Source: a virus. Taken from it: a stretch of DNA of 25,896 nucleotides. The stretch is taken from positions 1 through 25,896 of IMG/VR virus record IMGVR_UViG_3300017788_000148. One strand, written 5' to 3'. The notes beneath the pieces are model-generated. The model was not told the origin of the DNA, did no database searches, and saw only the letters and a program-made list of their open reading frames with translations. Shown one piece after another: positions 2,757-21,158 of the stretch (positions are counted from its first letter, which is position 1; the number at the start of each line of letters is the position of its first letter). A program made the position numbers and the translations under genes.

Positions 2757-2784
2757 TTGTTTTCACGCAACATTATGTTATAAT
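2757..2784 (+). promoter_or_regulatory. Sigma70-like promoter for primase-helicase
   Basis: -10 box TATAAT at 2779-2784 is a perfect match. The -35 box TTGTTT at 2757-2762 is separated by 16 bases. The expected start of transcription, seven bases after the -10 box, is 2791, which is the first base of the GTG start codon. There is no Shine-Dalgarno site. Confidence 0.65.
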
Positions 2785-2790
2785 TACTGA

Positions 2791-3762
2791 GTGTTTGATA
2801 TTCTTCAAATAGTTCCGGGCAAAAAGAAATTAACGCAAAGCGGTTGGCATAGTTTCAATGCTGTCTGTTGCCATTATCATGGGCATAAGGCAGATCGCCG
2901 TAGTCGCGGCGGTGTAAAGTTTGATGGTAATAACTGGAGTTATCATTGTTTCAATTGTGGATTCAAGTGTACGTTTACATTGGGACGTACACTAACACGC
3001 AATACAAGACAATTGTTATCATATTGCGGGATAGACAAAGACGATATCAACAAATATAGCCTAGAAAGTCTACAGCATAAAGACTTGCTTGATTTCACAA
3101 AACTTAAACGTGAAAAGAAAAAAATAAAGTTTAAAGAGATGACATTACCTGATGCTGAATTAGTTGACGAGTCTAATCCTAAACATGAAGTTTATGTAAG
3201 TTATCTAAACAAAAGAAAAATACGTATAAATGATTATCCATTTATGTGTACGCCGGATGCTGAAGGTCGTCAGGCAAGTCGTGTGATTATACCCTACACA
3301 TATGAAAATAAAATAGTGGGCCACACTAGTAGGTACTTGGATGATCGCACGCCTAAATTTATCAATGAACAACAGCAGGGATATGTATTTGGATATGACC
3401 TACAAAAGAAAGAATATGAAGTTTGTATTGTTACTGAGGGCATATTTGATGCACTAAGCATAAACGGCTGCGCACTGACACATAACACAATCAGCGAAGA
3501 TCAAGCAGAAATATTAAAGAATTTAAACAAAAAGATTATTGTTGTTCCAGATCAAGATAAGACAGGATTGCAAATTTGTGATCGTGCATTGGATTTGGGT
3601 TTTTATGTTAGCATTCCAAACTGGGAAGATGACGTAAAAGACGTAAACGATAGCGTAGTAAAATATGGGAAACTAGCAACATTGCTAAGTATCTTACAGT
3701 CATGTACAAACAGTAAGATCAAGATTGAAGTAAAGAGGAAGCAACTTGATAAACGATTATAA
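2791..3762 (+). CDS. 61: DNA primase, T4 gp61 type
   Basis: Makes RNA primers for lagging-strand synthesis, working with the gp41-type helicase encoded next. The length, 323 residues, is close to T4 gp61 (about 340). The N-terminus holds a zinc ribbon: C26, C27, H28 and H30, then CFNCGFKC at 53-60. The TOPRIM domain has VTEG with E216 and the acidic pair in PDQDKTG (D254, D256), followed by a DVKDVND segment that fits the last TOPRIM acidic site. The GTG start immediately precedes MFDILQIVPG, typical of this family, and lies exactly at the predicted transcription start. The end overlaps the helicase gene by 17 bases. Confidence 0.92.
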   Translation: MFDILQIVPGKKKLTQSGWHSFNAVCCHYHGHKADRRSRGGVKFDGNNWSYHCFNCGFKCTFTLGRTLTRNTRQLLSYCGIDKDDINKYSLESLQHKDLLDFTKLKREKKKIKFKEMTLPDAELVDESNPKHEVYVSYLNKRKIRINDYPFMCTPDAEGRQASRVIIPYTYENKIVGHTSRYLDDRTPKFINEQQQGYVFGYDLQKKEYEVCIVTEGIFDALSINGCALTHNTISEDQAEILKNLNKKIIVVPDQDKTGLQICDRALDLGFYVSIPNWEDDVKDVNDSVVKYGKLATLLSILQSCTNSKIKIEVKRKQLDKRL

Positions 3763-5152
3763 CATAGAAGTACAAAAAATATTTTTACAAATGATGATTA
3801 CAAACGCCGAACTTTTTACTCGCGTTATGAATATCATTAATGCAGAAAACTTTGATCGCCGCCTACGACCAGCGGCAGAATTTATTATTGAGCATACTAA
3901 AAAATATAATGTGATGCCCGATCCAATTCAAATTAAGGCTACAACTGAGATAAGTCTTGAACGTATAGACGAATTAGATGAAGCCTATTATAATTGGTTC
4001 TTAGAAGAATTTGAGGCATTTACTAGACGACAAGAACTTGAGAGGGCTATTCTTAAGAGTGCTGATCTTCTTGAGAAGGGCGAATATGGACCTGTAGAGA
4101 AATTGATCAAAGATGCGGTTCAAATTTCTCTACAGAAGGACATGGGTACAGATTACTTTGCCGATCCTAGAGCAAGACTCATGGCATTGAAAAATAATAA
4201 CGGTCAGAACAGCACAGGTTGGCCTACACTAGATAAAAAGTTATATGGTGGTTTCAATCGTGGTGAACTACAAATCTTTGCAGGTGGTAGTGGATCTGGT
4301 AAGAGTTTGGTCATGCAAAATCTTGCAGTCAACTGGGTACAAGCAGGAATGAATGGTGTTTATATTACACTTGAGTTGAGTGAAGGTTTGTCTAGTATGC
4401 GTATTGATAGTATGATGACCGATACAAGTACTCAGGAAATCTTCAAAGACCTTGATAACGTTGAGATGAAAGTTAAAATGATTGCTAAAAAAGCAGGTCA
4501 TTTGCGCATCAAGTATTTGCCAGCACAGAGTAATGTTAATGACATTAGAGCATATGTTAAAGAATTACAAGTACAAACAGGAATGCGTATAGATTTCTTG
4601 TGTGTTGATTATCTTGATTTGATTATGCCTGTAACTGCAAAAGTCAGCCCTAGCGATCTATTCGTCAAGGATAAGTATGTTAGTGAAGAATTGCGCAATC
4701 TTGCTAAAGAATTAAACGTCATATTCGTTACAGCCAGTCAGTTAAATCGTAGTGCGGTAGACGAGATTGAATTTGATCATAGTCATATTGCAGGTGGCAT
4801 CAGTAAGATCAATACCGCTGATAATGTATTTGGTATCTTTACATCAAGGTCTATACGTGAAAGCGGTAGGTATCAGATACAGTTAATGAAAACACGTAGC
4901 AGTTCGGGTGTAGGACAAAAGATTGAACTTAAGTATAATGGCGAAACATTACGTATTACTGATGACGGAGAATCTGATAGAAAAGAACCTAGTCCTAGTG
5001 CGTCTCAAATTATGAGTCAAATTAAGTCAACTAGCCAGATAGGGGCTGTAAATGAGATCGTATCGCAGCAGGTTCAGCCAGAACCTACTAGTAAAAATGT
5101 TGATATTCAAAGCGTAAAACTTAAAAGTCTGATAGCATCATTAAAGAACTAA
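3746..5152 (+). CDS. 41: Replicative DNA helicase, T4 gp41 type (DnaB-like)
   Basis: Hexameric 5'-3' helicase that unwinds DNA at the fork and recruits the primase. The length of 468 residues matches T4 gp41 (475). An N-terminal helical domain (1-150) is followed by a RecA-like core. Walker A is GGSGSGKS at 180-187, Walker B is FLCVDYLDL at 284-292 (D288), and the TASQLNR sensor segment follows. The last 60 residues, rich in S and Q, are probably disordered. The start is a TTG codon. It is favoured because an AGAGGAA ribosome site sits at 3734-3740 and because the next in-frame Met would remove the start of the helical domain. Translation is probably coupled to the primase. Confidence 0.93.
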   Translation: MINDYNIEVQKIFLQMMITNAELFTRVMNIINAENFDRRLRPAAEFIIEHTKKYNVMPDPIQIKATTEISLERIDELDEAYYNWFLEEFEAFTRRQELERAILKSADLLEKGEYGPVEKLIKDAVQISLQKDMGTDYFADPRARLMALKNNNGQNSTGWPTLDKKLYGGFNRGELQIFAGGSGSGKSLVMQNLAVNWVQAGMNGVYITLELSEGLSSMRIDSMMTDTSTQEIFKDLDNVEMKVKMIAKKAGHLRIKYLPAQSNVNDIRAYVKELQVQTGMRIDFLCVDYLDLIMPVTAKVSPSDLFVKDKYVSEELRNLAKELNVIFVTASQLNRSAVDEIEFDHSHIAGGISKINTADNVFGIFTSRSIRESGRYQIQLMKTRSSSGVGQKIELKYNGETLRITDDGESDRKEPSPSASQIMSQIKSTSQIGAVNEIVSQQVQPEPTSKNVDIQSVKLKSLIASLKN

Positions 5153-5162
5153 ACTCCCTAAA

Positions 5163-5178
5163 ATAGATAAATATCTAT
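5163..5178 (+). repeat. Inverted repeat enclosing a late promoter
   Basis: Arms ATAGAT and ATCTAT are perfect complements around AAAT. The late element GATAAATA occupies the centre of this repeat. Confidence 0.6.
5166..5173 (+). promoter_or_regulatory. T4-type late promoter (GATAAATA)
   Basis: Seven of eight bases match TATAAATA. The expected start, six bases after the last A, is 5179, the A of the downstream ATG, so the mRNA would have no leader. No Shine-Dalgarno site is visible. Confidence 0.75.
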
Positions 5179-5433
5179 ATGCAAAAGCAGACTAAAAGTT
5201 TATTGGAAGAACTAGAGGCTATTGGTCAAAATCGTGATATGAAGCATGTCATTGAAAATAGGGCGAATAATGTCATTTCTAGTGCTATAAATTTGTTGGA
5301 ACTTATCAATAAGAATTTTGATAGTTCTAAAGCAGAAATACTAGAGAAGAAACTTTTAAGTGCTATAAAAAATAGGGAGCCTAATAGATTTGCTAAATCT
5401 ATCAGGAAGAAGGATGAAGAAAAAAGTAAGTGA
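5179..5433 (+). CDS. Small helical protein, unknown function, late gene
   Basis: An 84-residue, charged, almost certainly all-helical protein: SLLEELEAIGQNRDMKHVIE, then NVISSAINLLELI, ending in a lysine-rich tail. I believe similar small proteins occur in other T4-like marine phages, but I know no function. The ATG coincides with the predicted late transcription start, giving a leaderless mRNA. It overlaps the next gene by 20 bases, so the two probably act or are made together. A virion, scaffold or packaging role is possible because it is late, but this is inference. Confidence 0.7.
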   Translation: MQKQTKSLLEELEAIGQNRDMKHVIENRANNVISSAINLLELINKNFDSSKAEILEKKLLSAIKNREPNRFAKSIRKKDEEKSK

Positions 5434-6556
5434 GGCTCTAGCGGATAATGTATTCGGGGCATTAGGTGGTGCCTACGACTTTACAAAAAATGTCAATAAT
5501 CCTTTAGATAATGTTTTAGCAAGAAGAAAAACAGGCTTAAGCGCCGAACAGCAAAAAGCATATGAAATTTTTAGAAAGAATTTTATAAATGATATTGCTG
5601 ACTTAATAGATTATGGAATTGACAGAAACCAATTTACTTTATTAGATCCTAATGCAGTTGGCCCTGATATAGCAACGCAAAAAAAGGCGCCCGGTACAAC
5701 AACATATTCGTACCCTTCAGATTTTAAAGGTTCAAGAACGTGGACTAGTACAAAGGACTGGCTTGAAGCATATAGAGACGAACTAGCAGCAATCGCTAAT
5801 AAAGAGCCGGAACCTCCGCCTCCCCCTAAACCACAAATTCAAGCGCAAATGTCTTTAGACATTGGCGATAAACCCGAACCCGGAGAAATCCCTGATAGCA
5901 GCTCCTTAGCAGCAAACGATTGGTCAAAATTTAATACTCCGGCTTATAAAAGAAAAAGAATACCCGCAGCACCCAAACCAGCAATAGATACCGGCCAAAT
6001 GACTGCCCCCGGAATATCAGAACCAGTAACTTTCGGCGGTGTCAAATATTATAAGGTTAATGGAAAATGGGTAAATGCCAAAGGGAGAGCAGCAGACAAA
6101 AATACAAGCGATTTGCTAGACCGTGTTCCTTTGGGTGAATCATATCCTGTAAACGCAACGGTTAATGGAGTAGTATACACACGTACAAATAAGGGATGGT
6201 TTTGTGAAAGTTATAAGGCAGAAGGTCAACTAGAAAAATTCTTAAATGAATCATACATGGCTGCTCTAGTAGAAACCCTTAATTATAAAAATTTAAATAA
6301 AAAATATGCGCAGTTAATGGAAGCAGAATCTTTACCTAATTTAGGCGATTTCCTATACAATAATTTGCTGAAAAAACATATAGAAACTAACAATCTTCCA
6401 GCAGCAGTTAAAGCGGAAGTATTAAGCATATTAAATAACCTACATAAAAATGTTAATAATAAAGATAAGACTCAACTTACCCGTGATATTGAACAAATGG
6501 CGTTATTGATTTTTAAAAATAGTTATAATTTAATGCCAAGATTGCTACGTAAATAA
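5414..6556 (+). CDS. Late protein with proline-rich linker, unknown function
   Basis: This 380-residue protein starts at the ATG at 5414, preceded by AGGAAGAAGG; a TTG further upstream at 5390 is less likely. It has a helical N-terminal domain (about 1-125) and a linker EPEPPPPPKP (about 132-141). Two short beta motifs read alike: FGGVKYYKVNGKWVNAKG (about 207-224) and VNGVVYTRTNKGWF (about 251-264). A helical C-terminal domain (265-380) follows, rich in N, L and K. The linked architecture and late expression suggest a virion or internal head protein. I do not recognise the family. Confidence 0.65.
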   Translation: MKKKVSEALADNVFGALGGAYDFTKNVNNPLDNVLARRKTGLSAEQQKAYEIFRKNFINDIADLIDYGIDRNQFTLLDPNAVGPDIATQKKAPGTTTYSYPSDFKGSRTWTSTKDWLEAYRDELAAIANKEPEPPPPPKPQIQAQMSLDIGDKPEPGEIPDSSSLAANDWSKFNTPAYKRKRIPAAPKPAIDTGQMTAPGISEPVTFGGVKYYKVNGKWVNAKGRAADKNTSDLLDRVPLGESYPVNATVNGVVYTRTNKGWFCESYKAEGQLEKFLNESYMAALVETLNYKNLNKKYAQLMEAESLPNLGDFLYNNLLKKHIETNNLPAAVKAEVLSILNNLHKNVNNKDKTQLTRDIEQMALLIFKNSYNLMPRLLRK

Positions 6557-6587
6557 CCCACCCAAATCCATGTTTTTTTCATACAGG

Positions 6588-6595
6588 CATAAATA
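6588..6595 (+). promoter_or_regulatory. T4-type late promoter (CATAAATA)
   Basis: One mismatch from TATAAATA. The expected transcription start is 6601, which is the A of an ATG that opens an eight-codon frame before the main gene. Confidence 0.7.
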
Positions 6596-6600
6596 ATAGT

Positions 6601-6627
6601 ATGAGCCTTAAGGGTTCACAACATTAG
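6601..6627 (+). CDS. Possible leaderless eight-codon leader peptide
   Basis: ATG at the predicted late +1 opens MSLKGSQH and then TAG at 6625-6627. The TAG overlaps the AGGAG ribosome site of the next gene, so translation of this minicistron could influence the main start at 6639. Chance occurrence is possible. It is listed because the ATG placement repeats that of other genes here. Confidence 0.3.
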   Translation: MSLKGSQH

Positions 6628-6638
6628 GAGATTTTAAA

Positions 6639-7028
6639 ATGGCACAGTTTACAAGAGTCAATGGTGACTACAAACAGGTAATGTGGTTAGACGCCCCAGA
6701 TTATACTAACACAGGCGTTAACGCAATCACTTCAGCAGCAACAGTTCAGCCACAGGGCCCAAAGCTATCTTTCGGCACAGTGACATTTACTGGCGCAGCA
6801 ACTCCATCAGGATCAGATATACAGATTGCTGTCCAGACTGTTCAACAGTTAGCAACTATTCATATCTATGAGTTCACAGAAGTAGGTGCAAATACTGATA
6901 CATTAGCTCTAGCTATCTATCCAGTAGAAGCATGGGACTTCACTAACGGTGGAAACCTAGACGCTGCATTGACCACAGCACTAGGATATGCTGTAACTAC
7001 AGCAGCAACAGCAACTTTCACTAACTAA
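6639..7028 (+). CDS. Small virion-type protein, probably abundant
   Basis: A 129-residue protein, rich in A, T, G and V and low in charge, with predicted beta strands. It has the composition of head-decoration or other surface virion proteins. It has a late promoter, a clear AGGAG site before the ATG and its own strong intrinsic terminator. Together these make a single-gene transcription unit and suggest high output. There is no recognised family. Codons are biased to a limited set, as in the gp18 and gp19 genes, also consistent with high expression. Confidence 0.65.
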   Translation: MAQFTRVNGDYKQVMWLDAPDYTNTGVNAITSAATVQPQGPKLSFGTVTFTGAATPSGSDIQIAVQTVQQLATIHIYEFTEVGANTDTLALAIYPVEAWDFTNGGNLDAALTTALGYAVTTAATATFTN

Positions 7029-7054
7029 TAATTAGTTTTAGTCAAGCAGAATAA

Positions 7055-7086
7055 GGCCCGAGAAGTAAAATTCTCGGGCTTTTTTA
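7055..7086 (+). terminator. Strong intrinsic terminator
   Basis: Nine-base perfect stem GCCCGAGAA / TTCTCGGGC (7056-7064 and 7071-7079) with loop GTAAAA, followed by a run of six Ts. Confidence 0.93.
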
Positions 7087-7090
7087 TTGC

Positions 7091-7098
7091 TGTAAATA
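7091..7098 (+). promoter_or_regulatory. T4-type late promoter (TGTAAATA)
   Basis: One mismatch from TATAAATA. It sits directly after a terminator, and its last A is five bases before the ATG at 7103. A leaderless or nearly leaderless transcript is predicted. Confidence 0.55.
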
Positions 7099-7102
7099 CG
7101 GC

Positions 7103-7552
7103 ATGTCTCATAGAATTGGTTGTTTTACACTATTTGATATTACAAAAACCGGGGTATTAAATAGAGCCAGACCCCCTGATGATGTAGATTTTGACTTGTG
7201 GATAAATCAGCGCGCCTCACAATGCAATTTTGATACAATCTTACAAATAGTATCATTACGTGCCCAACCTGACAATATGACGATGCCTGCCAGAACAGTA
7301 TTAGATTTATCTCAAAATCACAGTTTTGGATTAAACTATAATACAGGTTCTACTTTTATATGGACCTTTGATTTTGAAGTGCAAAATATATCAGTTTTTA
7401 ATGATGGCACAGATATTTTAGGATCTTTATACAGCGACAGTCAAGGTGTGCCCATGGTTACTACTACCAATCAACTAAAAAATTTAGAACTAATTTTAGA
7501 TGTAACAAAACAAAAAAGAAACATTTATTTTGTTAAATATAACTATGAATAA
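7103..7552 (+). CDS. Conserved T4-like marine phage protein, unknown function
   Basis: A 149-residue protein opening with RIGCFTLFDITKTGVLNRAR, followed by NQRASQCNFDTILQIVSLRA (about 46-65). These segments look like those of a family conserved in cyanophage-like T4 phages. The C-terminal half is beta-rich and includes WTFDFEV. No function is known to me. It starts at the predicted late transcription start, lacks a Shine-Dalgarno site and overlaps the next gene by eight bases. It may be a structural or assembly protein. Confidence 0.78.
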   Translation: MSHRIGCFTLFDITKTGVLNRARPPDDVDFDLWINQRASQCNFDTILQIVSLRAQPDNMTMPARTVLDLSQNHSFGLNYNTGSTFIWTFDFEVQNISVFNDGTDILGSLYSDSQGVPMVTTTNQLKNLELILDVTKQKRNIYFVKYNYE

Positions 7553-7985
7553 GGTTGACATTAAAAATAAAATTTCTGATCTTTTCATTTCCCGAGACAA
7601 TAACGGGACATACAATCTATTTGGAAATTATGTAATTTTTACGGTTAACGGACAATATCATCTTTTAAAAAAAGATGTAACTGACCCTCTTGTTTTTAAC
7701 AATTTAAAACATGCTGTGACATGGTGTGTTTTTGATAAAGCAAATAAGTATAAAGAACTAAAGAGGGTATACGAATTAGACAACGATCTGGTATCAGCAG
7801 ACGTACTAATAGCAAATTATACACGCCTTATGGTCAATTGTAATAATAGCAATAAATACATATATAAAGCAAAACTAATAGAGCAAAAGATCAAAAAACG
7901 CAAAATGCTTGAAGAAATTAACGATTTTACTGGATTATCCAAATATATGCAGTCTAAGAAGTTTGCTGAAAATCAACACAAATAA
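7545..7985 (+). CDS. Conserved T4-like phage protein, unknown function
   Basis: A 146-residue protein starting MNKVDIKNKI. The ATG at 7545 overlaps the previous stop; a TTG start at 7530 is possible but less likely. Visible features are YNLFGNYVIF (about 23-32), HAVTWCVFDKA (about 62-72) and a long lysine-rich helix at the C-terminus. The pattern resembles a conserved protein of T4-like marine phages found next to the preceding gene. There is no enzyme motif. The shared late transcript suggests it works with its neighbour. Confidence 0.72.
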   Translation: MNKVDIKNKISDLFISRDNNGTYNLFGNYVIFTVNGQYHLLKKDVTDPLVFNNLKHAVTWCVFDKANKYKELKRVYELDNDLVSADVLIANYTRLMVNCNNSNKYIYKAKLIEQKIKKRKMLEEINDFTGLSKYMQSKKFAENQHK

Positions 7986-7995
7986 TCGTTAATAT

Positions 7996-8003
7996 GATAA
8001 ATA
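7996..8003 (+). promoter_or_regulatory. T4-type late promoter (GATAAATA)
   Basis: Seven of eight consensus bases. The expected start is 8009, giving an 18-base leader with only a weak GGGAT ribosome site before the ATG at 8027. Confidence 0.7.
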
Positions 8004-8026
8004 TATTATAATACTGGGATATTACT

Positions 8027-8731
8027 ATGAAACTTAATGAATTAGGATATGCGGATACAGCAGTCAAGGCTTTACAATCAAATTTTGATTTTACCTTAGA
8101 CGTAACTAAATTAGATCGCTCACAAACCTTCAATTTTTTAACTAAAGTTAACAATGCCCTTAAAGAAGCAAGAATGAAGCCAGATTTTGTAAAGTCACAA
8201 ACTAATGAGAACTATTTAAAAATGACTTTCATAGCCCAGGCATTGAATGAACATTATAAATCATTTAAAAAGACACGCATCGTTGTAGAAAATAAGGCTG
8301 TAGAAGATGCACAAAATACTTTAGCAGCCCAAGACATGGTAGACAGTATTCAGAAAATGATTGAAGAAGTTAACGATATGCTTGTCAAAGAACTACCTGC
8401 ACTAACAGATAGCCTATTATCAGAAATGGGCCCAGAAGCCTCTGGTCAATTTAATCAATTAGCCAACGAATCATTAACTGCTTTAAATCAAGCCCTAAGC
8501 CAAAGCAAGCAAGTATTACAACAAGCAATGAATGTAATTACACCGGGTGCCGAGTCTGGGTTTGATCCTAATGCCGGCGGTGATGAAATGGCTGTAACTG
8601 ATATCGCAGTTAAATCTCCAGAGGGTGATGCAGATGCGATGATGGCAGCAGCAGGTCCTGCTCCAGTCGAAGCACCAGTAGAAGAGCCTGAAGAAGAAAT
8701 GACCGGCGGAGTTGGTAGAGCAAAGAGGTAA
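8027..8731 (+). CDS. Putative prohead/virion-associated helical protein with acidic tail
   Basis: A 234-residue protein, mostly alpha-helical. TFNFLTKVNNALKEARMKPD (34-53) looks conserved among T4-like marine phages. Residues 110-175 form amphipathic helices rich in Q and L, fit for coiled coils. The last 50 residues are acidic and alanine/proline-rich (EAPVEEPEEEM), ending in a basic GRAKR. Helical, coiled-coil proteins with acidic tails are typical of internal scaffold and core proteins, so a prohead role is suggested, but this is inference. The late promoter supports a morphogenetic role. Three bases separate it from the next gene, whose ribosome site lies in its last codons. Confidence 0.6.
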   Translation: MKLNELGYADTAVKALQSNFDFTLDVTKLDRSQTFNFLTKVNNALKEARMKPDFVKSQTNENYLKMTFIAQALNEHYKSFKKTRIVVENKAVEDAQNTLAAQDMVDSIQKMIEEVNDMLVKELPALTDSLLSEMGPEASGQFNQLANESLTALNQALSQSKQVLQQAMNVITPGAESGFDPNAGGDEMAVTDIAVKSPEGDADAMMAAAGPAPVEAPVEEPEEEMTGGVGRAKR

Positions 8732-8734
8732 ATA

Positions 8735-9067: not shown

Positions 9068-9096
9068 TTGCATCGTATTATTTTTTAGTATAAAAT
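9068..9096 (+). promoter_or_regulatory. Sigma70-like promoter for the IscA-SGNH-exonuclease operon
   Basis: -35 TTGCAT at 9068-9073, 17-base spacer, -10 TAAAAT at 9091-9096. The expected start is 9103, the A of the ATG, so the transcript would have no leader. The -35 box begins directly after the previous stop codon. Confidence 0.65.
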
Positions 9097-9102
9097 AGTT
9101 GT

Positions 9103-9423
9103 ATGATTAATCTTACTGAAACTGCCAAACAGCGTTTCAAACACCAATTACAAGAACGTGGCAAAGGACTAGGAATACGTTTAGGTATAACTAAAACAGG
9201 ATGTAGCGGTTATGCTTATAAAATTGAATTTGCTGATGAATGGCGTAGTGACGATTATCTAAAAATCATTGATGATCTTTATATTTGGATTACTCCAGAA
9301 GCACTTAAATATCTTGACGGAATGACAGTAGATTATATCAAGAAAGGATTAAACGAACAGTTTGAATTCGTTAATCCAAATGAGACCGGTCGTTGCGGTT
9401 GTGGGGAAAGTTTTACTGTATGA
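9103..9423 (+). CDS. A-type iron-sulfur carrier (IscA/HesB family)
   Basis: Binds and passes on Fe-S clusters in the cytoplasm. At 106 residues it has the family length and all three conserved cysteines: TGCSGY with C34, and RCGCGESF with C98 and C100. DDLYIWI and VNPN also match the fold. HesB/IscA-like genes are recurrent accessory genes in marine T4-like phages and may help keep host Fe-S enzymes active during infection. The ATG is exactly seven bases after the -10 box, so the mRNA is probably leaderless. Its stop overlaps the next start by four bases (ATGA). Confidence 0.93.
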   Translation: MINLTETAKQRFKHQLQERGKGLGIRLGITKTGCSGYAYKIEFADEWRSDDYLKIIDDLYIWITPEALKYLDGMTVDYIKKGLNEQFEFVNPNETGRCGCGESFTV

Positions 9424-10940: not shown

Positions 10941-10951
10941 GGCAGATTTAG

Positions 10952-10959
10952 TATAAATA
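10952..10959 (+). promoter_or_regulatory. T4-type late promoter, perfect TATAAATA
   Basis: Exact late consensus, 33 bases before the ATG at 10985. The expected start is about 10965, giving a 20-base leader with no clear Shine-Dalgarno site. Confidence 0.85.
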
Positions 10960-10984
10960 GTTGTGATACCGGTATATTACAACT

Positions 10985-12691: not shown

Positions 12692-12696
12692 TAACA

Positions 12697-12766
12697 TGTT
12701 GTAACGTTGTTGTTACAACTTATGCGGTTCCCGCCGCGTATCGGCTAGAACCCGAACTTATAGGAG
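12697..12766 (+). promoter_or_regulatory. Structured 5' leader with two hairpins
   Basis: Hairpin 1 has perfect arms GTTGTAAC and GTTACAAC (12698-12705 and 12712-12719) with a six-base loop, starting one base after the predicted +1. Hairpin 2 pairs GGTTC (12726-12730) with GAACC (12748-12752) and, inside it, GCCG (12733-12736) with CGGC (12742-12745). An ATAGGAG ribosome site (12760-12766) follows. The arrangement suggests a leader that protects the mRNA or tunes translation. It resembles no riboswitch I know. Confidence 0.6.
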
Positions 12767-12773
12767 AAAAACA

Positions 12774-13898
12774 ATGGGTCGTCCACTTAAAATCGCAAAA
12801 GCACAAGCAGTAGTTACTATTACAGATACCACAGCCGGTACTGAACTAATAACAACTAATGCAAATTTTACAAACTTAGGTATCATTGCAGGCATGCCAT
12901 TTATTCCAGCAAGTAACATTGGTGGTCTAATCGCAGGTACTACATATTGGATTCTTGAAGTTGTAAACGCAGGCAACAACAGCACATTCTATGCATCTGC
13001 AACTGAGTTGTCAGCAAACCCAACTTACACAAAATTTGATGTGTCAACAGCAGCAGGTACAGTAGCAGCATCGGTAGGTGTTGTTGATGCATATTTCAAC
13101 AATCCAATTGGTGGTGCAGGTTATCCAGCAACTAACGCAAACACATATGGCGTAGTTGGTGGTAACACAGCAATCTATGGTAGCCAAGTATTAGTTGGCG
13201 TATGCATGGGTGTAACAGGAACAGGTACAATCACTGTTGCTGATGACAGCCCAAATGTTGACGGTGTAGGAACAGATTTTGCTAACACATTTGTAGACGG
13301 TACAATAGTTTATGATGTTGATGGCAACATTCTTGGTACTATTGATGACGTAGCAAACGCAAATGCAGTATTCGCAACGTTCGCAGCAAATGCAAGTGCA
13401 AACGTATCAGGTGGTGCATATGTATATGGCACACCGGAAGCAGGCTTTATCGTTCGTCAGAAAGGTAAAACAAAGTATCTAGTTAAAGGTACAACTTCAG
13501 GTCTAACACAGGCTTGCTATACAGCAAATGTAGCAAATACTGCATTATTACCTAACACGTTCACAATCACAGCAACTTATGCTGATACTTCAACAGCATA
13601 TGTGCAGTCACTAAGTGACTATAGGTCAGAAGTGTTCCCAGCAACTGTTGCTGCTGCTTCATTGGCAGCAGGTACAGTATATACTATTGAGTTTGTTGGC
13701 ACAACTGACTTTACAGCAGTTGGCGCATTTGCTAACATGACTGGAATCACATTCGTTGCCACTGGCGCAGGTTCAGGTACAGGTACAGCAGTACTTTCAA
13801 ACATTGATCCTGACGTAATAGCATCGTTCAACAGCGCAGTTGCAGCAAACGCTGCAAATGGTCTATTGAACCCAGTAGTAACCATCACAAACTCCTAA
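12774..13898 (+). CDS. Large beta-rich virion protein of marine phage type
   Basis: A 374-residue protein of low charge, rich in A, T, V and G. It contains modules I recognise from many marine phage structural proteins. These are an IAGTTYWILEV segment (about 53-63), a GTGTITV...VDGVGTDF segment followed by VYDVDGNILGTI (148-190), FIVRQKGKTKYLV (223-235) followed by TFTITATYADTSTAY, and YTIEFVGTTDFTAVGA with GAGSGTGTAV (about 300-340). These are beta-sandwich-like modules. The late promoter, structured leader and strong ribosome site imply high expression. The likely role is surface decoration or fibre-associated. The exact position is unknown. Confidence 0.7.
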   Translation: MGRPLKIAKAQAVVTITDTTAGTELITTNANFTNLGIIAGMPFIPASNIGGLIAGTTYWILEVVNAGNNSTFYASATELSANPTYTKFDVSTAAGTVAASVGVVDAYFNNPIGGAGYPATNANTYGVVGGNTAIYGSQVLVGVCMGVTGTGTITVADDSPNVDGVGTDFANTFVDGTIVYDVDGNILGTIDDVANANAVFATFAANASANVSGGAYVYGTPEAGFIVRQKGKTKYLVKGTTSGLTQACYTANVANTALLPNTFTITATYADTSTAYVQSLSDYRSEVFPATVAAASLAAGTVYTIEFVGTTDFTAVGAFANMTGITFVATGAGSGTGTAVLSNIDPDVIASFNSAVAANAANGLLNPVVTITNS

Positions 13899-13912
13899 TA
13901 GGAAAAAATAAG

Positions 13913-14227: not shown

Positions 14228-14246
14228 GAATAGTCTATATGACTAG

Positions 14247-14278
14247 TAGAAACGGGGCATACGCCCCGTTTCTATTTT
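14247..14278. terminator. Bidirectional intrinsic terminator
   Basis: Twelve-base perfect stem: TAGAAACGGGGC (14247-14258) pairs with 14263-14274 around loop ATAC, followed by TTTT on the plus strand. It separates the plus-strand operon from the converging NUDIX gene, whose TAG stop lies inside the stem. Confidence 0.88.
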
Positions 14279-14673
14279 GTAAGTGTTGTTAATTTTTCTT
14301 TGACGATATCAATATTTACCGTACTAAACAATCCTGGATGCATTGGTCGAGGATGTTGTGTATCACCTATCCAAGCATACCCTACATGTTCATCATTTAG
14401 TTTAGGTATAAATTCTTCATCAACAGCACAAAAAAATGTATGATATGTAAAACTATTGTTTACGAATTTTTGTATAGGAATTAATTTAGCGTTATTTGGA
14501 AAATATCCTATTTCTTCTAAACATTCTCTTTTCAAGCCTTCTAATAATGTCTCATCATTTTCAATTTTCCCACCGGGCACACCCCAACTATAATTGGCAT
14601 CACTACGCAGAAGATATAAAAATCTTTTAGTAATGCTGCTATAAAAGAAAATACCTGCTGAAGTGTTCTTCAT
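14272..14673 (-). CDS. NUDIX hydrolase
   Basis: A 133-residue enzyme that cleaves nucleoside diphosphates linked to another group; the substrate is unknown. The NUDIX box is complete at residues 35-57: G35, five residues, E41, then REC and EEIG (R49, E50, E53, E54, G56). The SWGVPGGK approach is also standard. The ATG at 14673 is preferred; a TTG one codon earlier is possible. It follows gp15 by about 24 bases on the same strand and is probably read from the gp14 late promoter, an unusual place for a metabolic gene. No separate promoter or ribosome site is clear. A sanitising or NAD/cap-cleaving role is possible. Confidence 0.93.
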   Translation of the reverse strand: MKNTSAGIFFYSSITKRFLYLLRSDANYSWGVPGGKIENDETLLEGLKRECLEEIGYFPNNAKLIPIQKFVNNSFTYHTFFCAVDEEFIPKLNDEHVGYAWIGDTQHPRPMHPGLFSTVNIDIVKEKLTTLTK

Positions 14674-14697
14674 CAATTAATTGTAACAGATTTATTA

Positions 14698-16074
14698 TTA
14701 AAGGACAATACTATAATCACCTTGGTCATACCAGCCTTCATACGATTTCATCCATTGTCCTTCTTGTTGAACATAGCGATATTGAATATTTGTAGTAAGA
14801 TTGGTCACATATTGTACCGTAGTAGATTCACTCGCATCAAATGACACGAACCATGACATTGAGGTTGAATTAAATTGTACTATATCGTTCGCGCTGGCTA
14901 CTAAATCTCCCCAAGCATCTGTTGGACTTCCTTCACTACCTACATCTTCAACAATCAAATATCTACGCCCATTTATTGGTCCAGGTAATCCAAAATTGGG
15001 TCCTTGAGTGATTGGATTGATTACCGCATCTATTGGATCAAGGGTATTTTGGGGTAAAGTGTCTTGATCAATATCGTAAATTAAGATTCTATCGTCTAAG
15101 GGATCTTGAACGATAGTGCCTACAATGTCGTCTTCCATATATGGATTTTGTAACCATATCTGACTTATGCCCGGCTTATATTTTCCATACACATTTAATA
15201 AACTACTCCAATACAAATTTGTATTAGGTGGTACAGGTTCTGATAATGTAGAATTTGATGGATCAAATGCTGAATCAGCAGGGAGCAATTGTAATCTATT
15301 TCCTAATAATAAAAGTTTATATCCGTATGGGGTGATTTTTTGTCTTGTACCTAATAATAAATCTTCATCTTGTATATCTTGCAAGGCTGTGCCTTTATAA
15401 ATGCTTGCAATAATTTTGTGTACAACACCCATCTTTTTAAGTTTGCTACTTGTGCTGATCCATATAGGCAAATAAAATTTCCAACTCATAACATCAATAG
15501 GATTATTACCACCTACTGGTATGCTACGTGAACTAAATGTTAATCCATCTTGATACACAACAGTTAATGAAGTCCAATCTATAAAATTATCGGTGCTTTG
15601 TATTTCTAAACTAGGGTTGAATAATGTACCTAATTGTTCTATCAACTGTAGTTTTTGATTATAATTAGTAGTCCAAAAATCCACCTGCATTCTTAGTGTA
15701 TAAGGCACTGGCATCAAACGTTCTACCGTAAATGCTTGACCTTGGACTTCTTCAAAAGTCTGTGTCTCTTGATTATATTGTCTTTGTCTAACATTTATTC
15801 TGTCAACAAAAAATGGTTCTTGAGTTCTACGTTGATCATATTCTAGACCAGTTATAAAATATGTAATAATAGGTGCACTTGGTAGTGTGCTTGCACTGTT
15901 GTTGGCAATAATAGTTGATACTTGCCTGCTTTGATCTCCATACATAACAGGTACACGAACTAATATGTCATTACCGTTTGGATCCTTGCCCTTAGTTACG
16001 TACCAGTTGCTAAAGATTTTTGCAAATTGTATTAAAAATCTGCGTATCTGATTGTCATAAAAAAATTGTGCCAT
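14698..16074 (-). CDS. 15: Tail sheath stabiliser/completion protein, T4 gp15-like
   Basis: Caps the contracted-tail end and joins tail to head neck. The N-terminus, FFYDNQIRRFLIQFAKIFSN, then LVRVPVMYGD, corresponds to the T4 gp15 opening (FYNSSFRR...LFSN...FIRVPITY). Residues 115-160, with PVPYTLRMQVDFWTTN and QLIEQLGTLFNP, match the central gp15 region. At 458 residues it is much longer than T4 gp15 (272). The extra C-terminal 200 residues form beta-rich modules of unknown function, as in marine relatives. It lies three bases after the gp14 stop, and the order 14-15 matches T4. Translation is probably coupled. Confidence 0.82.
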   Translation of the reverse strand: MAQFFYDNQIRRFLIQFAKIFSNWYVTKGKDPNGNDILVRVPVMYGDQSRQVSTIIANNSASTLPSAPIITYFITGLEYDQRRTQEPFFVDRINVRQRQYNQETQTFEEVQGQAFTVERLMPVPYTLRMQVDFWTTNYNQKLQLIEQLGTLFNPSLEIQSTDNFIDWTSLTVVYQDGLTFSSRSIPVGGNNPIDVMSWKFYLPIWISTSSKLKKMGVVHKIIASIYKGTALQDIQDEDLLLGTRQKITPYGYKLLLLGNRLQLLPADSAFDPSNSTLSEPVPPNTNLYWSSLLNVYGKYKPGISQIWLQNPYMEDDIVGTIVQDPLDDRILIYDIDQDTLPQNTLDPIDAVINPITQGPNFGLPGPINGRRYLIVEDVGSEGSPTDAWGDLVASANDIVQFNSTSMSWFVSFDASESTTVQYVTNLTTNIQYRYVQQEGQWMKSYEGWYDQGDYSIVL

Positions 16075-16077
16075 GTA

Positions 16078-17793
16078 TTACTCTATTGGTGGTAAATTGT
16101 CCGGTGCTAAAGCTAGTATACTTGATAATGGTTGAGCAGACGGTATCAACTTTTCTTGGTTATTACTGTAAATAACATCCTCGTTATTTATGAAGTTTGA
16201 CAATTGAGATTTATCTGTGGCTGTCATTCCTGTTTCTGTTCTTACGTTTGTTGATATACGAACCCATAATTTTCCATCCCAGCGGTAAAGTATTTGTGGA
16301 TTATAATCTATACGTAAGAAATAATCTCCGACTTGCGGATTTTGTGGGAAAGCAATACCGGCGCCGCTAGGTAATCCGTTAGGTGCGGTTCCATCTCCCG
16401 ACATGTAACCTGTTTCGTATCCAAAACTTCTTGGTGTGGAACGAGCAATAAATTGGAACGCTGGATCACAGTCCGCACGCCAGTCCATTTGTTGTGATAT
16501 AGTGCCCGTAAATCCTGACTGTTCGGGATCAGCATCAGCTGTAGCATATGTGTTATCAGCAGTACCGTATGGACCAGTTACTGGACCTAATGACTTGACT
16601 GATAGAATTTTATCTCCCTCTACGAATCCACTACTTGATTTGCTAACAGGCGAAACAGATTCAGTTACTTCTAAATGTGTTTGTACGAACTTATCAATTT
16701 TATCTGATAAATCTGCGTCTGCTGTCATATCCCAAATACTTTTTATTACATCCTTAGAAATTCTAATACCGACACTTGGATTTTTATATTTGTGATTACG
16801 CATATAAACAACGGTGCCGGAAACTGTACTTGGCGCACCGCCGCTATAAGTCACTACATTATAAGGCGGAGCAGGTTGATTCAACTGACCTGACGGCTGA
16901 TTATTATTAGCAAATACGCCGTAGGTTGGTACCACATACATCTTGCTATTATCATAACCTGCTTTAGGCAATATTCTTTTTGCTTCATCAAGTTGAGCAT
17001 TATTAATTTCAATATTCTTGTTGTATGTAGCAAGTATATCTTTGAGATTTTGATTGGGATCTAGTTCCCAATAAGTCGGATCAGGTGGTTTGATTCCTGC
17101 CGGTACTTCAATTTTACTAATATAATTTTTGTCACCGAAACTTACAACATAGCCAGGAGGATAAACTTTATCTTTCTCCCAATCACCTAAATAATTATCT
17201 GTATCGATTGGTTCTTTAAGTATGTTGCTAAATTCTTGACTGTCTACAAGTGGTTCACATTTGATACGCCATAAGTGAGGATACCAAGTCTGACTAAATC
17301 CTTCGCTGGCAAAGTTGGCGTCTGTGATTTGATAAAATCTTTTAAGCGCGACTGGTATGGTTTCTTTTAATGGATTATAATCTAGTAAGTGGGGTAGTTC
17401 TAATACATCCCCTACCATGAGTTTACGACCTATAATATCAATCATATCATTGTAGTGAACAACAATGAAAATAATATCGTTATTAAGAAATAATCCAAAC
17501 TGACTTAAATCAAAATCTAAATTCTGTACGTTATATTGACCTCTCAATCTATAAATGTTAGGATCATATTTGCGATCACGATTTTCTAAAAATAGTAAAT
17601 CTTGTATTTGAGTTGGCTCTGGACTGATATACTGAGGTTGAGTATAATCTGGGCTAGGAGTTTGTGCTTCCGGGCCTAAAAACTTGTGTATGTATAAATC
17701 AGTACCGCCTACGGTTAACGTTTCAGATATGGTTCTATCCAAATATCTATAGTCATTTTGTTTAGTAGGGCTATATAGCGATAGTTTTGGCAT
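16078..17793 (-). CDS. 14: Neck protein, T4 gp14-like, with added modules
   Basis: Part of the head-tail connector. Residues 75-190 hold the conserved part: YDPNIYRLRG, LDFDLSQFGLFL, GRKLMVGDVLELPHL, ALKRFYQITDA, TWYPHLWRIK and DSQEF, corresponding to the GDLIYFP...FEINWV region of T4 gp14. At 571 residues it is over twice T4 gp14 (256). Added parts include a CBM5/12-like motif (205-242), a long unmatched region, and a short module ending WDGKLWVRI (486-513). Identification is supported by the adjacent gp15. Its ATG lies exactly at the predicted start of a minus-strand late transcript, so it is probably leaderless. Confidence 0.78.
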   Translation of the reverse strand: MPKLSLYSPTKQNDYRYLDRTISETLTVGGTDLYIHKFLGPEAQTPSPDYTQPQYISPEPTQIQDLLFLENRDRKYDPNIYRLRGQYNVQNLDFDLSQFGLFLNNDIIFIVVHYNDMIDIIGRKLMVGDVLELPHLLDYNPLKETIPVALKRFYQITDANFASEGFSQTWYPHLWRIKCEPLVDSQEFSNILKEPIDTDNYLGDWEKDKVYPPGYVVSFGDKNYISKIEVPAGIKPPDPTYWELDPNQNLKDILATYNKNIEINNAQLDEAKRILPKAGYDNSKMYVVPTYGVFANNNQPSGQLNQPAPPYNVVTYSGGAPSTVSGTVVYMRNHKYKNPSVGIRISKDVIKSIWDMTADADLSDKIDKFVQTHLEVTESVSPVSKSSSGFVEGDKILSVKSLGPVTGPYGTADNTYATADADPEQSGFTGTISQQMDWRADCDPAFQFIARSTPRSFGYETGYMSGDGTAPNGLPSGAGIAFPQNPQVGDYFLRIDYNPQILYRWDGKLWVRISTNVRTETGMTATDKSQLSNFINNEDVIYSNNQEKLIPSAQPLSSILALAPDNLPPIE

Positions 17794-17798
17794 ATAAG

Positions 17799-17806
17799 TA
17801 TTTAGT
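17799..17806 (-). promoter_or_regulatory. T4-type late promoter (ACTAAATA), minus strand
   Basis: Two mismatches from TATAAATA, keeping the TAAATA core. The last A (base 17799) is exactly six bases before the gp14 ATG at 17793, predicting a leaderless gp14-gp15-NUDIX transcript. Confidence 0.6.
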
Positions 17807-17831
17807 GTAAAAACAATGACTTACAAAGGAC

Positions 17832-17860
17832 TTGACTTTACCCTTTTAATTTAGTAAAAT
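17832..17860 (+). promoter_or_regulatory. Sigma70-like promoter
   Basis: -35 TTGACT at 17832-17837 (one mismatch), 17-base spacer, -10 TAAAAT at 17855-17860. The start is expected near 17867, giving a 26-base leader with GGAG at 17883-17886. It is the only sigma70-like unit here with a normal leader. Confidence 0.8.
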
Positions 17861-17892
17861 TGTATAGTTAAGTAATACTAACGGAGCAGGTT

Positions 17893-19020
17893 ATGTCTAA
17901 ATCAAAGGATATTAAAGAGTTGCATCCTCGCGACCCTGACGCAAAGTACATTGGGCCTGAACCCAAATTTGATTATGAGTCGGTCAGTACTACGTGGGAC
18001 CTCGCAAAAGCATTTGGGTGGTACAATCACTTCTATGACAAGAAGGACGCCCGTGAGTTTATCGCACAGTATCTTGAAGTTGCAGGAAAGCAACAAGTTG
18101 CAAAAACGCTACGCCGTGTCAATGAGCGTCATGTCAAGCCCACATATGGCTGGCTAGCACGATGCATCGTTCGCGGTAGCGTAGTTGACAATGACACTCT
18201 TACTAAGTTGCAGGATGAGGTCAATCGTCTCATCGCACTGACTCAGCCTGAGGACACTACAGACGGTCCTGTTGTGTCTAATCGCCCCAATGTGCAGGAG
18301 ATCATGCGTGAGCGTACTCTGAATCTTGGTGGCGAACTTGAGGGATTGTGGGACGATTATTTAAAGAATGGTGCTGGTAAGGACGGCATTAAAGCAATTG
18401 ATGTGTTGTCTCAAAGCAACATATTGCCGCAGCACGTCCCAATTCTCATTGATGCTTGGCAGACTAAACTTGACGAATATAACGAAGTTATGTCAGGTAA
18501 AGATGAGCAATTGAACGAAGCCTATGAGCGTTTTGGCAAGATTCAGTTGCGTAATATCGTTAGCACTATTGAGACGGTCATCGCCGATCTTAACGCATAT
18601 ATCGGTATGAAGAAAGCAGGTAAGAAGCCCCGTGCTAAGAAGCCTGTACCGGTTGAGAAAGTCGTTCGTCGTCTCAAGTACCTTAAGACTTTTAAACTTG
18701 AGAAATTAGAACTGACTAGCATTAGCCCAACTAAGTTGCATGGCTGTAGTGAGGCTTGGGTCTATGACACCAAGAAGCGCAAACTTCATCACTACGTTGC
18801 TGACGAGTATACTAAGAGCATTGGTGTCAAGGGCAATACAGTGCTTGGGTTTTGTACTAAGGAATCGCAGATCAAAACATTGCGTAAGCCCGAAGAACAA
18901 ATCAAAGTGATTATGGGTAGCAAGCCGGCAGCACGTAAATTCTTTGATAGCATCAAGGCTGTGAGTGTTGCACCTAATGGACGCTTCAATGCTAACATGA
19001 TTATATTGAGGGCATTCTAA
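17893..19020 (+). CDS. Large conserved T4-like phage protein, unknown function
   Basis: A 375-residue, charged, soluble protein. The N-terminal helical domain includes WDLAKAFGWYNHFYDKKDAR (35-54) and YGWLARCIVRG. A lysine-rich segment with KKAGKKPRAKKPVPVEK (about 240-256) could bind nucleic acid. The C-terminal domain (265-375), with SEAWVYDTKKRKLHHYVA and GFCTKESQIKTLRKPEE, is strand-rich. I believe homologues occur in T4-like cyanophages and pelagiphages as a hypothetical protein. Its codons use C and G in third positions more than neighbouring genes, suggesting high early expression or different ancestry. Its promoter places it with early or middle genes, so a replication or transcription-takeover role is plausible but unproven. 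Confidence 0.75.
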   Translation: MSKSKDIKELHPRDPDAKYIGPEPKFDYESVSTTWDLAKAFGWYNHFYDKKDAREFIAQYLEVAGKQQVAKTLRRVNERHVKPTYGWLARCIVRGSVVDNDTLTKLQDEVNRLIALTQPEDTTDGPVVSNRPNVQEIMRERTLNLGGELEGLWDDYLKNGAGKDGIKAIDVLSQSNILPQHVPILIDAWQTKLDEYNEVMSGKDEQLNEAYERFGKIQLRNIVSTIETVIADLNAYIGMKKAGKKPRAKKPVPVEKVVRRLKYLKTFKLEKLELTSISPTKLHGCSEAWVYDTKKRKLHHYVADEYTKSIGVKGNTVLGFCTKESQIKTLRKPEEQIKVIMGSKPAARKFFDSIKAVSVAPNGRFNANMIILRAF

Positions 19021-19217
19021 TGAGTAAATATGAATTTCATCCCATCGAACAAAGAATGGGAACAATGATGCAAATTATAGACACCGCTATACTTTCAACT
19101 AATGATCGTAATGATCAGTTAATGTTGGCATGTGCTATGATGCAACGCACAAGAGAGATTTTTGATGCTGTATTGGCAGAAGAAGGTCGTAAAAAAATGT
19201 TTGAGGAATTAGTATGA
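19020..19217 (+). CDS. Small helical protein, unknown function
   Basis: A 65-residue, methionine-rich, all-helical protein (EQRMGTMMQIIDTAILSTND; QLMLACAMMQRTREIFDAVL). The ATG overlaps the previous stop (TAATG), and its own stop overlaps the MazG start (ATGA), so all three genes are translationally linked. There is no family I can name. It might assist the MazG-like enzyme or the upstream protein. Confidence 0.7.
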   Translation: MSKYEFHPIEQRMGTMMQIIDTAILSTNDRNDQLMLACAMMQRTREIFDAVLAEEGRKKMFEELV

Positions 19218-19663
19218 GTCAGGTAGATTTGAATAAGTATAAGGATTTTGTAGAGGCTGTCACAAGTGTCCAAAGTCAGGACCTTACTGAGTTTATGAAT
19301 CGTCTTGATCGTCTTGATGGCAACTATGAAGCATATGGTCCAGATGGTGAATACATCCATGGTCCAAATGTCAATGTACCACTATTGCTTTGTGGTGCTA
19401 TTGGTCTTGGCAGTGAGACCGGTGAGTTTCAAGAGATCGTAAAAAAGTGTGTGTTTCAGGGTAAGCCACTTAGTGAAGAAACACTATTTCATATGAAGAG
19501 GGAATTAGGGGATATCATGTGGTACTGGATCAATGCTTGTCGCTCACTTGGATTAGATCCTAATGATGTTGTTGCTGAGAATGTCAAGAAACTTGAAGCA
19601 CGATATCCGGGCGGCAAATTTGATGTATTTTATAGTGAAAATCGTAAAGTAAACGATCTTTAA
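19214..19663 (+). CDS. mazG: MazG-like nucleotide pyrophosphohydrolase
   Basis: Hydrolyses nucleoside triphosphates, or possibly the alarmone (p)ppGpp or other nucleotides, to monophosphates. The all-alpha MazG signature is clear: GSETGEFQE (66-74) with E71 and E74, then RELGDIMWY (96-104) with E97 and D100, with the K77/K78 pair between. At 149 residues it is a single-domain form. MazG is a recurrent accessory gene of marine T4-like phages. A GAGGAA ribosome site precedes the ATG. Residues 35-55 (DGNYEAYGPDGEYIHGPNVN) form an unusual N-terminal addition. Confidence 0.9.
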   Translation: MSQVDLNKYKDFVEAVTSVQSQDLTEFMNRLDRLDGNYEAYGPDGEYIHGPNVNVPLLLCGAIGLGSETGEFQEIVKKCVFQGKPLSEETLFHMKRELGDIMWYWINACRSLGLDPNDVVAENVKKLEARYPGGKFDVFYSENRKVNDL

Positions 19664-19674
19664 TATCTAAACTT

Positions 19675-19704
19675 ATTCCCGATAAATAATATATTATCGG
19701 GAAT
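19675..19704. repeat. Perfect 11-base inverted repeat containing a late promoter
   Basis: Arm ATTCCCGATAA (19675-19685) and its complement (19694-19704) flank an eight-base AT loop. The late element GATAAATA spans the left arm and the loop. It may end the MazG transcript, or control the gp13 promoter or mRNA. There is no long T run after it. Confidence 0.8.
19681..19688 (+). promoter_or_regulatory. T4-type late promoter (GATAAATA)
   Basis: Seven of eight consensus bases, 21 bases before the ATG at 19709. The expected start is 19694, the first base of the right arm of the surrounding repeat, with GGGAA as a weak ribosome site. Confidence 0.72.
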
Positions 19705-19708
19705 CTTT

Positions 19709-20494
19709 ATGGCAAACGATCCACTTTCAGTACCTACAAATCTTTCTTTACAAGAACTTAAAGAGCAGATGTTTAACAACCTAAGACTACGCTTAGGTGG
19801 CGATATTATAGATATAGAATTAGATCCTCAACACTATGAAGCATCATACGATTATGCTATAAAAGTTTACCGTCAACGTGCCCAAAATGCTAACATAGAA
19901 AGTTATACACTAATGACAATTATTAAGAACGTTGATACATATACTCTTCCTAGTGAGTTTGTAAACGTTCGTGCTATCTTTCGTAGAACTGTAGGCCTTG
20001 AGACTGGACCTAGTTCAACATCATTCGACCCATTCTCAAGTGCGATTCTTAACACATATCTGTTAAACTATAATTATACCGGTGGTATGGCAACATATGA
20101 TTTCTATGCAGGTTATGTAGAATTAGCAGCGCGTATGTTTGGTGGTTATGTTACATACACATTTAACCCAGTCACCAAAATATTAAAAGTTGTACGTGAC
20201 TTTAAAGGTACTGGTGAGCGCGTATTGATTTGGGCAGACGTTCAGCGCCCAGAATCTGAATTATTGCAGGATCCGGGTATTGGAATTTGGATAAACGATT
20301 TTATCTTCTCGCAATTAAAAATGATCATCGGCGAGGCGCGTGAAAAATTTGCTACAATCGCAGGTCCAGGCGGCGGTACATCATTAAATGGAACTGCATT
20401 GAAAGCAGAAGGTAAAGCAGATATGGAAAGATTGCTTGAAGATTTACGCCGTTATCAAGATTACAGTCAGCCGTTAACTTGGATACAGGGTTGA
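19709..20494 (+). CDS. 13: Neck protein, T4 gp13-like
   Basis: Head-completion neck protein that sits between the portal and gp14. A 261-residue protein, against 309 in T4. The segments IDIELDPQHYEASYDYAIKV and YRQRAQNANIESY (about 35-67), YTLPSEFVNVRAIFRRTVG (about 77-95) and the WADVQRPESELLQDPGIGIW region are characteristic of gp13 in marine T4-like phages. The C-terminus (AREKFATIAGPGGG...) also fits. In T4, genes 13, 14 and 15 are adjacent on one strand; here 13 is on the opposite strand from 14-15, with a different operon between them. Late promoter upstream. Confidence 0.85.
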   Translation: MANDPLSVPTNLSLQELKEQMFNNLRLRLGGDIIDIELDPQHYEASYDYAIKVYRQRAQNANIESYTLMTIIKNVDTYTLPSEFVNVRAIFRRTVGLETGPSSTSFDPFSSAILNTYLLNYNYTGGMATYDFYAGYVELAARMFGGYVTYTFNPVTKILKVVRDFKGTGERVLIWADVQRPESELLQDPGIGIWINDFIFSQLKMIIGEAREKFATIAGPGGGTSLNGTALKAEGKADMERLLEDLRRYQDYSQPLTWIQG

Positions 20495-20519
20495 TTTCAC
20501 TTTTTACTCTTGTTATAAT
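20491..20519 (+). promoter_or_regulatory. Sigma70-like promoter for dNMP kinase
   Basis: -35 TTGATT at 20491-20496 (overlapping the gp13 stop), 17-base spacer, perfect -10 TATAAT at 20514-20519. The expected start is 20526, the A of the ATG. Confidence 0.75.
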
Positions 20520-20525
20520 CAACAT

Positions 20526-21158
20526 ATGATCGTAGGTGTAGCAGGCTTCATAGGCAGCGGCAAAGATACTATTGCCGATTATCTAATCACATTCAAAGGG
20601 TTTCGTCGCATGAGTTATGCAGAACCTCTTAAGGATGCCATAGCCAGCATTTTTGGTTGGGATCGTGAATTACTTGAGGGTACAACAAAGTATAGCCGTG
20701 AATGGCGTGACACGATTGATCCGTGGTGGGCAGAACGACTTGATATAGCACATCTAACTCCACGCTGGGTATTACAACAATGGGGAACCGAGGTAGGTCG
20801 TAGAGCATTTCATGATGATATTTGGATTGCTAGTATTGAAAATAAATTACGATCTGTCAAAGATGATATTGTAATAAGTGATTGTCGTTTCCCTAATGAA
20901 CTCAAATCTATTAAACGTGCGGGCGGAATCACTATACGTGTTTCGCGCGGTGCTACTCCCGAATGGTATGACAGCGCAGTAGCCCTAAACAAAGGTTACT
21001 ATACTGTAGGTTACACGGAAGCAAGAAAAGTACTAGAGGACTATGACGTTCACGCTAGCGAATACAGTAGCGTAGGATTAGATTACGATTACTATGTTGA
21101 AAACAATGGAACTATTGATGAACTACATAGAAAGGTTGACTTAATAATCAACAGTTAA
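20526..21158 (+). CDS. 1: Deoxynucleoside monophosphate kinase, T4 gp1-like
   Basis: Phosphorylates dNMPs to dNDPs, feeding phage DNA synthesis. It has 210 residues, against 241 in T4. Walker A is GFIGSGKDT at residues 7-15. The stretches YAEPLKDAI and FGWDRELLEG, WVLQQWGTEVGR, and ISDCRFPNELKSI match the family's nucleotide-binding and lid regions. The ATG lies at the predicted transcription start, with no ribosome site. The gene is a single unit that converges on and overlaps the HNH-type gene by 18 bases. Confidence 0.93.
   Translation: MIVGVAGFIGSGKDTIADYLITFKGFRRMSYAEPLKDAIASIFGWDRELLEGTTKYSREWRDTIDPWWAERLDIAHLTPRWVLQQWGTEVGRRAFHDDIWIASIENKLRSVKDDIVISDCRFPNELKSIKRAGGITIRVSRGATPEWYDSAVALNKGYYTVGYTEARKVLEDYDVHASEYSSVGLDYDYYVENNGTIDELHRKVDLIINS

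Follow-up and report, generated by a model that had tools for sequence, protein, structure and literature searches.

Probable leaderless mRNAs of replication, recombination and nucleotide genes form a conserved class in a freshwater jumbo-phage lineage

The window (the whole stretch of 25,896 nucleotides of viral DNA that was analyzed) carries genes identified by Pfam and PHROGs as a DNA primase (phrog_47, T4-gp61-like), an IscA-type iron-sulfur protein (PF01521) and a dNMP kinase (PF21448, phrog_139), together with a Nudix hydrolase gene on the minus strand. The primase gene lies next to that of a DnaB-like helicase, the order found in PA5oct, Atu_ph07 and RaK2-type phages. Many relatives are present in IMG/VR; no named phage gave a near DNA match to the window, and the nearest isolates by helicase (48% to PA5oct) and primase (30–33%) are PA5oct, Atu_ph07 and Phosso, followed by RaK2-like phages. 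The comparison with T4 made in the initial annotation is thus loose: these matches place the phage in a freshwater lineage of jumbo type that is related to PA5oct and Atu_ph07, and not with T4. A strong symmetric terminator-like hairpin is located at 7053–7082, between a gene end at 7028 and a gene start at 7103, and the Rfam “freshwater-2” RNA (RF02980, 65 bits) is matched on the plus strand at 12700–12776, right at the start of an ORF at 12774.

No tRNA or tmRNA was found in the window. In two larger related records there is a permuted tmRNA with a match to the Rfam betaproteobacterial family (beta_tmRNA), which suggests, short of proof, betaproteobacterial hosts. This match was more useful as a host marker than bS21, which was rejected because it led only to distant phyla via short motifs. 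IscA matches labeled as Acinetobacter phage were also set aside as bacterial isc operons; the record concerned (CAKLQH020000011.1, “Acinetobacter phage MD-2021a”) contains an isc operon, hupB, mfd and ppiD and looks like mislabeled host sequence.

Table 1. Features of the window and of related records (positions are those of the window unless another record is named).
Feature	Position	Strand	Details
Primase promoter	2757..2784	+	−35 TTGTTT 2757–2762; 16-nt spacer with CGCAACA 2766–2772; extended −10 TGtTATAAT 2776–2784 (TATAAT 2779–2784), then 6 nt; spacing kept in 36/36 distinct relatives
DNA primase, predicted leaderless	2791..3762	+	GTG 2791 = predicted +1; in-frame TGA immediately 5′
iscA promoter	9068..9096	+	−35 TTGCAT 9068–9073; 17-nt spacer; −10 TAAAAT 9091–9096, then 6 nt; homologues match better, gap 6–8
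IscA-type iron-sulfur protein, predicted leaderless	9103..9423	+	ATG 9103
Nudix promoter	14680..14708	−	TTGTCC 14708–14703; 17-nt spacer; −10 TACAAT 14685–14680, then 6 nt
Nudix hydrolase, predicted leaderless	14272..14673	−	ATG 14673; SD in 0/54 distinct homologues
Leadered promoter (contrast)	17832..17893	+	TTGACT-17-TAAAAT 17832–17860; gap 32; SD GGAG 17883–17886; ATG 17893; SD retained in relatives
dNMP kinase promoter	20491..20519	+	−35 TTGATT 20491–20496; 17-nt spacer; extended −10 TGtTATAAT 20511–20519 (TATAAT 20514–20519), then 6 nt
dNMP kinase, predicted leaderless	20526..21158	+	ATG 20526
TTGnnTTTTnnnCAACA element, examples	window 2757–2772; L004 9964–9984; L186 860–880		L004 and L186: iscA promoters of relatives
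Permuted tmRNA	L262 8503–8905; L356 15364–15715	−, −	tags ANDSQFSIAA and ANDSVYALAA
Large tRNA arrays with initiator-like tRNA, bS21 and IF1 genes	G004: L253, L254, L268, L269; 63744, 471943, 89943, 448305

As can be seen in Table 1, the −10 boxes of the primase, IscA and dNMP kinase genes stand at one fixed distance from the start codon, as the initial annotation had noticed. Its figure of seven bases is right as a position; counted as a gap, there are six bases between the −10 box and the codon. Since a σ70 −10 box occupies positions −12 to −7, a six-base gap places the predicted +1 on the first base of the ATG or GTG. Each of the three starts is the first possible start codon downstream of an in-frame stop, so that none can lie further upstream, and the dNMP kinase start is firm because the Walker A loop begins at most 14 residues from its ATG. 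The proposed set of three genes was correct but incomplete: at least four are present in the window, the Nudix gene having been overlooked. The absence of a Shine–Dalgarno (SD) site at the three genes was likewise observed; it is not independent evidence, because the −10 box sits at the SD position. The unit at 17832 has the normal leader and SD site ascribed to it. The iscA promoter of the window is weak (8/12), and those of its homologues score better.

The identical spacing had been thought unlikely to arise by chance, and shuffling bore this out. When only the first ATG or GTG of the 31 ORFs was considered, four genes of the window had a promoter scoring at least 8/12 at a gap of exactly 6, against a mean of 0.27 and a maximum of 2 in 300 dinucleotide shuffles of the upstream sequences. 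At a score of at least 9, the related genomes G001, G002 and G003 yielded 5–6 such genes, with 0.2–0.4 expected, and T4 and 121Q yielded none at gap 6. Counting all promoter-like sites, the total of σ70-like sites in the window showed no excess over shuffles. A comparison of in-frame with out-of-frame sites was dropped, since TATAAT contains stop codons and the control is confounded; family, intergenic and shuffle tests were used instead.

Within the lineage, promoters scoring at least 10/12 upstream of ORFs are of two classes: one is sharply concentrated at gap 6, the other forms a broad maximum at 24–36, and few lie between them. G001, G002, G003 and G009 have 7, 4, 4 and 5 promoters, respectively, at gap 6 versus 0.1–0.4 per gap at 8–23. 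Record IMGVR_UViG_3300027749_002876 (524,565 bp, G004) was rejected as one 524-kb genome, two related genomes being joined in it: a 347.5-kb unit bounded by a 4.1-kb direct repeat is flanked by 173 kb of an inverted relative (~80% identity). Recounting on the 347.5-kb part gave six promoters at gap 6 versus a mean of 0.56 per gap. The genome-wide excess that the initial annotation had proposed to look for is thus present in all five. At gap 6, T4, PA5oct and SCTP-2 had one promoter each and 121Q had none; the gap-6 peak is absent from T4 and from the RaK2-like 121Q. By these counts, the gap-6 habit appears to be rare in related laboratory phages and present across many genomes of this lineage.

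In five clade records, an SD site was found at 0 of 32 leaderless versus 41 of 67 leadered starts, and in four of the five, strong leadered promoters were at least as numerous as leaderless ones. The predicted leaderless genes of the relatives reach well past those of the window and serve mostly replication, recombination and nucleotide functions: primase, dNMP kinase, an SbcD/gp47-like nuclease (phrog_100), an exonuclease (phrog_107), DNA-polymerase-like (phrog_11127), DnaJ-like, Nudix, QueE-like and GIY-YIG endonuclease-like proteins and phrog_11279. A recurring dyad like TGTTGTATTTTTACAACA, lacking an adjoining −10 box, occurs in G004 at 121970, 269083, 451619 and 484586 and could be an operator or a terminator.

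The primase gap is exactly 6 in all 36 distinct upstream sequences of full-length matches, none of which has an SD site. Because 16 different 6-nt spacers share this gap, it is the length of the spacer and not its sequence that is conserved. The start codon is GTG in 27 of the 36, and the −35 element of the near clade (TTGTTT) is a weak match. Relatives at 35–41% protein identity have TTGACA-17-TATAAT-like boxes, six bases and then ATG; the isolates PA5oct and PAC2 have TTGACA-17-TATAAT-6-GTG (spacer GTGCGC in PA5oct), and the gap-6 promoter of SCTP-2 is a weaker match. At the corresponding place in 121Q, K64-1 and Munch, there is a leader of ~20–30 nt with an SD site. Apparent leaderless starts ~100 bases upstream of the annotation were noted for the primases of PP408249.1 (L288 2947, annotated 3049) and MF360958.1 (L294).

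The primase and iscA promoters share, in many relatives, an operator-like element between the −35 and −10 boxes, TTGnnTTTTnnnCAACA, which is often the dyad TGTTG-N7-CAACA. A −10 box follows 27 of its 60 distinct occurrences in relatives, nearly all before primase or iscA; the element is possibly the site of a regulator.

In the dNMP kinase family, we observed that the presence of an SD site is coupled to leader length. Where the promoter lies 15–40 bases upstream, 52 of 55 homologues have an SD site and three do not; where it stands at gap 6, none of 16 has one (Fisher P 3e-13, for homologues collected by similarity and not independent inside one family). Together with primase, this family bears out the SD-free conservation of the spacing that had been suggested as a check. 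When 83 dNMP kinases were placed on a tree, the leaderless rows, 15 in number, all fell inside one clade of 27 (support 100/99) that also includes 10 leadered rows, requiring at least three changes. Leaderless arrangements were found in 23 of 54 distinct Nudix homologues and in 16 of 25 members of phrog_11279, the latter SD-free, with SD sites in seven of the nine others.

We consider it very probable that these sites mark a conserved class of leaderless mRNAs, mainly of replication, recombination and nucleotide genes, in this jumbo-phage lineage. The σ70-type promoters of the genes listed above, of iscA and of others would be set so that RNA polymerase begins at the first base of the start codon, and the resulting mRNAs would therefore be leaderless, with a 5′ UTR of 0 to ~2 nt. 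A leader of 1–3 nt is possible, the distance from −10 to +1 in σ70 promoters varying by 1–2 nt. Such mRNAs would be translated by a start-codon-first (70S-type) route and not by SD pairing, and the remaining genes would use promoters ~24–36 nt upstream and, for the most part, SD sites. The gap-6 promoters would most likely be read by the host RNA polymerase carrying its primary σ factor; a search for phage σ factors (PF04542) in six records found none. In T4, replication, recombination and nucleotide genes of this sort belong to the middle class, and it is from gene function that we infer “early/middle” expression.

Several observations bear on whether these promoters serve translation in some other way. 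The promoters might be real while the proteins are made mainly from longer transcripts reading through from upstream operons, initiated independently of SD sites (by S1 or A/U-rich sequence), so that the start at the codon would be incidental. Genes with gap-6 promoters do follow one another closely, with short intergenic stretches, and the −10 region is A/T-rich; yet such read-through would leave unexplained both the exact gap of 6 with varied spacer sequence and the SD sites of the longer-distance dNMP kinase homologues, and we regard it as improbable. If the A/T-rich box were no promoter at all, but an enhancer of translation initiation or some other element, its place just 5′ of the starts would fit. 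This is very improbable, however, given a −35 hexamer at 16–18 nt that is often a perfect TTGACA (G004 and G001 have promoters scoring 12/12) and the occurrence of an extended −10 TGn: the box obeys a promoter spacing rule and not an RNA rule.

The starts themselves could have been miscalled, the true ones lying downstream with ordinary leaders, as the public primase starts of PAC2 and SCTP-2 do. Those annotated starts, however, would truncate a conserved N-terminal Cys motif, the dNMP kinase Walker A loop requires the present ATG, and conservation of the N-termini sets in at the first residue. We therefore give this possibility only a slim chance, and it is the PAC2 and SCTP-2 starts that appear to be mis-annotated. 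In a genome rich in A/T, one could suspect chance or a biased selection of sites, since three sites were picked from many promoter-like ones whose total does not exceed that of shuffles, but the shuffle tests, the same peak in independent genomes, its absence from control phages and its conservation refute this reading and leave it a negligible probability.

Against the leaderless reading itself count the weak −35 of the near-clade primase, the weak iscA promoter of the window and the GTG primase starts, given that leaderless GUG is poorly translated in E. coli (PMC9031893). All homologues were, moreover, collected by similarity, so that members of one family do not count as independent. In E. 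coli, initiator tRNA, IF1 and IF2 favor leaderless mRNAs and excess IF3 disfavors them (PMC9031893). G004 encodes IF1, bS21 and Met tRNAs with an initiator-type C1-A72 mismatch, and G001 encodes bS21; IF1 was found only in G004, and no IF3 gene was found in the records of six relatives. To tie these genes to leaderless expression is speculation. Jumbo phages carry such translation genes for other reasons too. It is an unlikely, if conceivable, extension that the phage uses the placement of +1 on the start codon as a regulatory code and remodels host translation so that leaderless replication mRNAs would be favored at one stage and SD-led ones at another.

Leaderless phage mRNAs are already known from lambda cI and phiYS40; what would be new is this gene class in this lineage. 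The lambda cI promoter is likewise a phage σ70 promoter with +1 on the AUG; it serves one repressor gene and not a class of replication genes. As summarized in PMC3594737, most middle and late transcripts of the Thermus phage phiYS40 are leaderless; its host has many leaderless genes, and infection is accompanied by an increase in IF2 and a decrease in IF3. On that account, both phages would have a whole class of leaderless transcripts beside leadered ones, here predicted from sequence; the difference is that the present set is limited and led by replication genes, in another lineage with probably betaproteobacterial hosts. A predominance of leaderless middle and late genes was not found: the leadered gene at 17893 retains its SD site in relatives. 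A TA-like box (TAnnnT/TATAAT) ~12 bp before the start codon in place of an SD site is an established computational sign of leaderless genes, according to the portion consulted of a survey of chromosomes, not phages (Zheng et al. 2011, PMC3160421). Here too, a −10-like box at about −12 peaks above shuffles, and SD sites are absent there and used elsewhere in the genome.

PA5oct, Atu_ph07, 121Q, K64-1 and Munch share the primase–helicase order and a promoter before primase, but in PA5oct only primase and perhaps one more gene would be leaderless, and the primases of the last three are leadered. T4 middle genes overlap in function (primase, dNMP kinase, gp47-like), but T4 lacks the gap-6 excess and the MotA box (TGCTTtA-like, centered at −30) of its middle promoters was found in none of the primase, IscA and dNMP kinase promoters; many promoters of relatives have TTGACA. 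Leaders of 26–491 nt are reported for the jumbo phage AR9 (PMC5312081), and roughly a hundred leaderless transcripts for the betaproteobacterium Burkholderia cenocepacia (PMC4603805). Our search of the open-access literature turned up no account of leaderless mRNAs for the PA5oct/Atu_ph07 lineage.

For gene callers, the apparently mis-annotated primase starts of PAC2 and SCTP-2 are a caution. In most Gram-negative bacteria, translation without a leader counts as a minor pathway. A set of phage genes that is conserved and relies on this pathway, and whose homologues change from one form to the other, leaderless or SD-led, would be a natural experiment on when the leaderless route pays, and one that could be tested in the laboratory phage PA5oct of P. 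aeruginosa.
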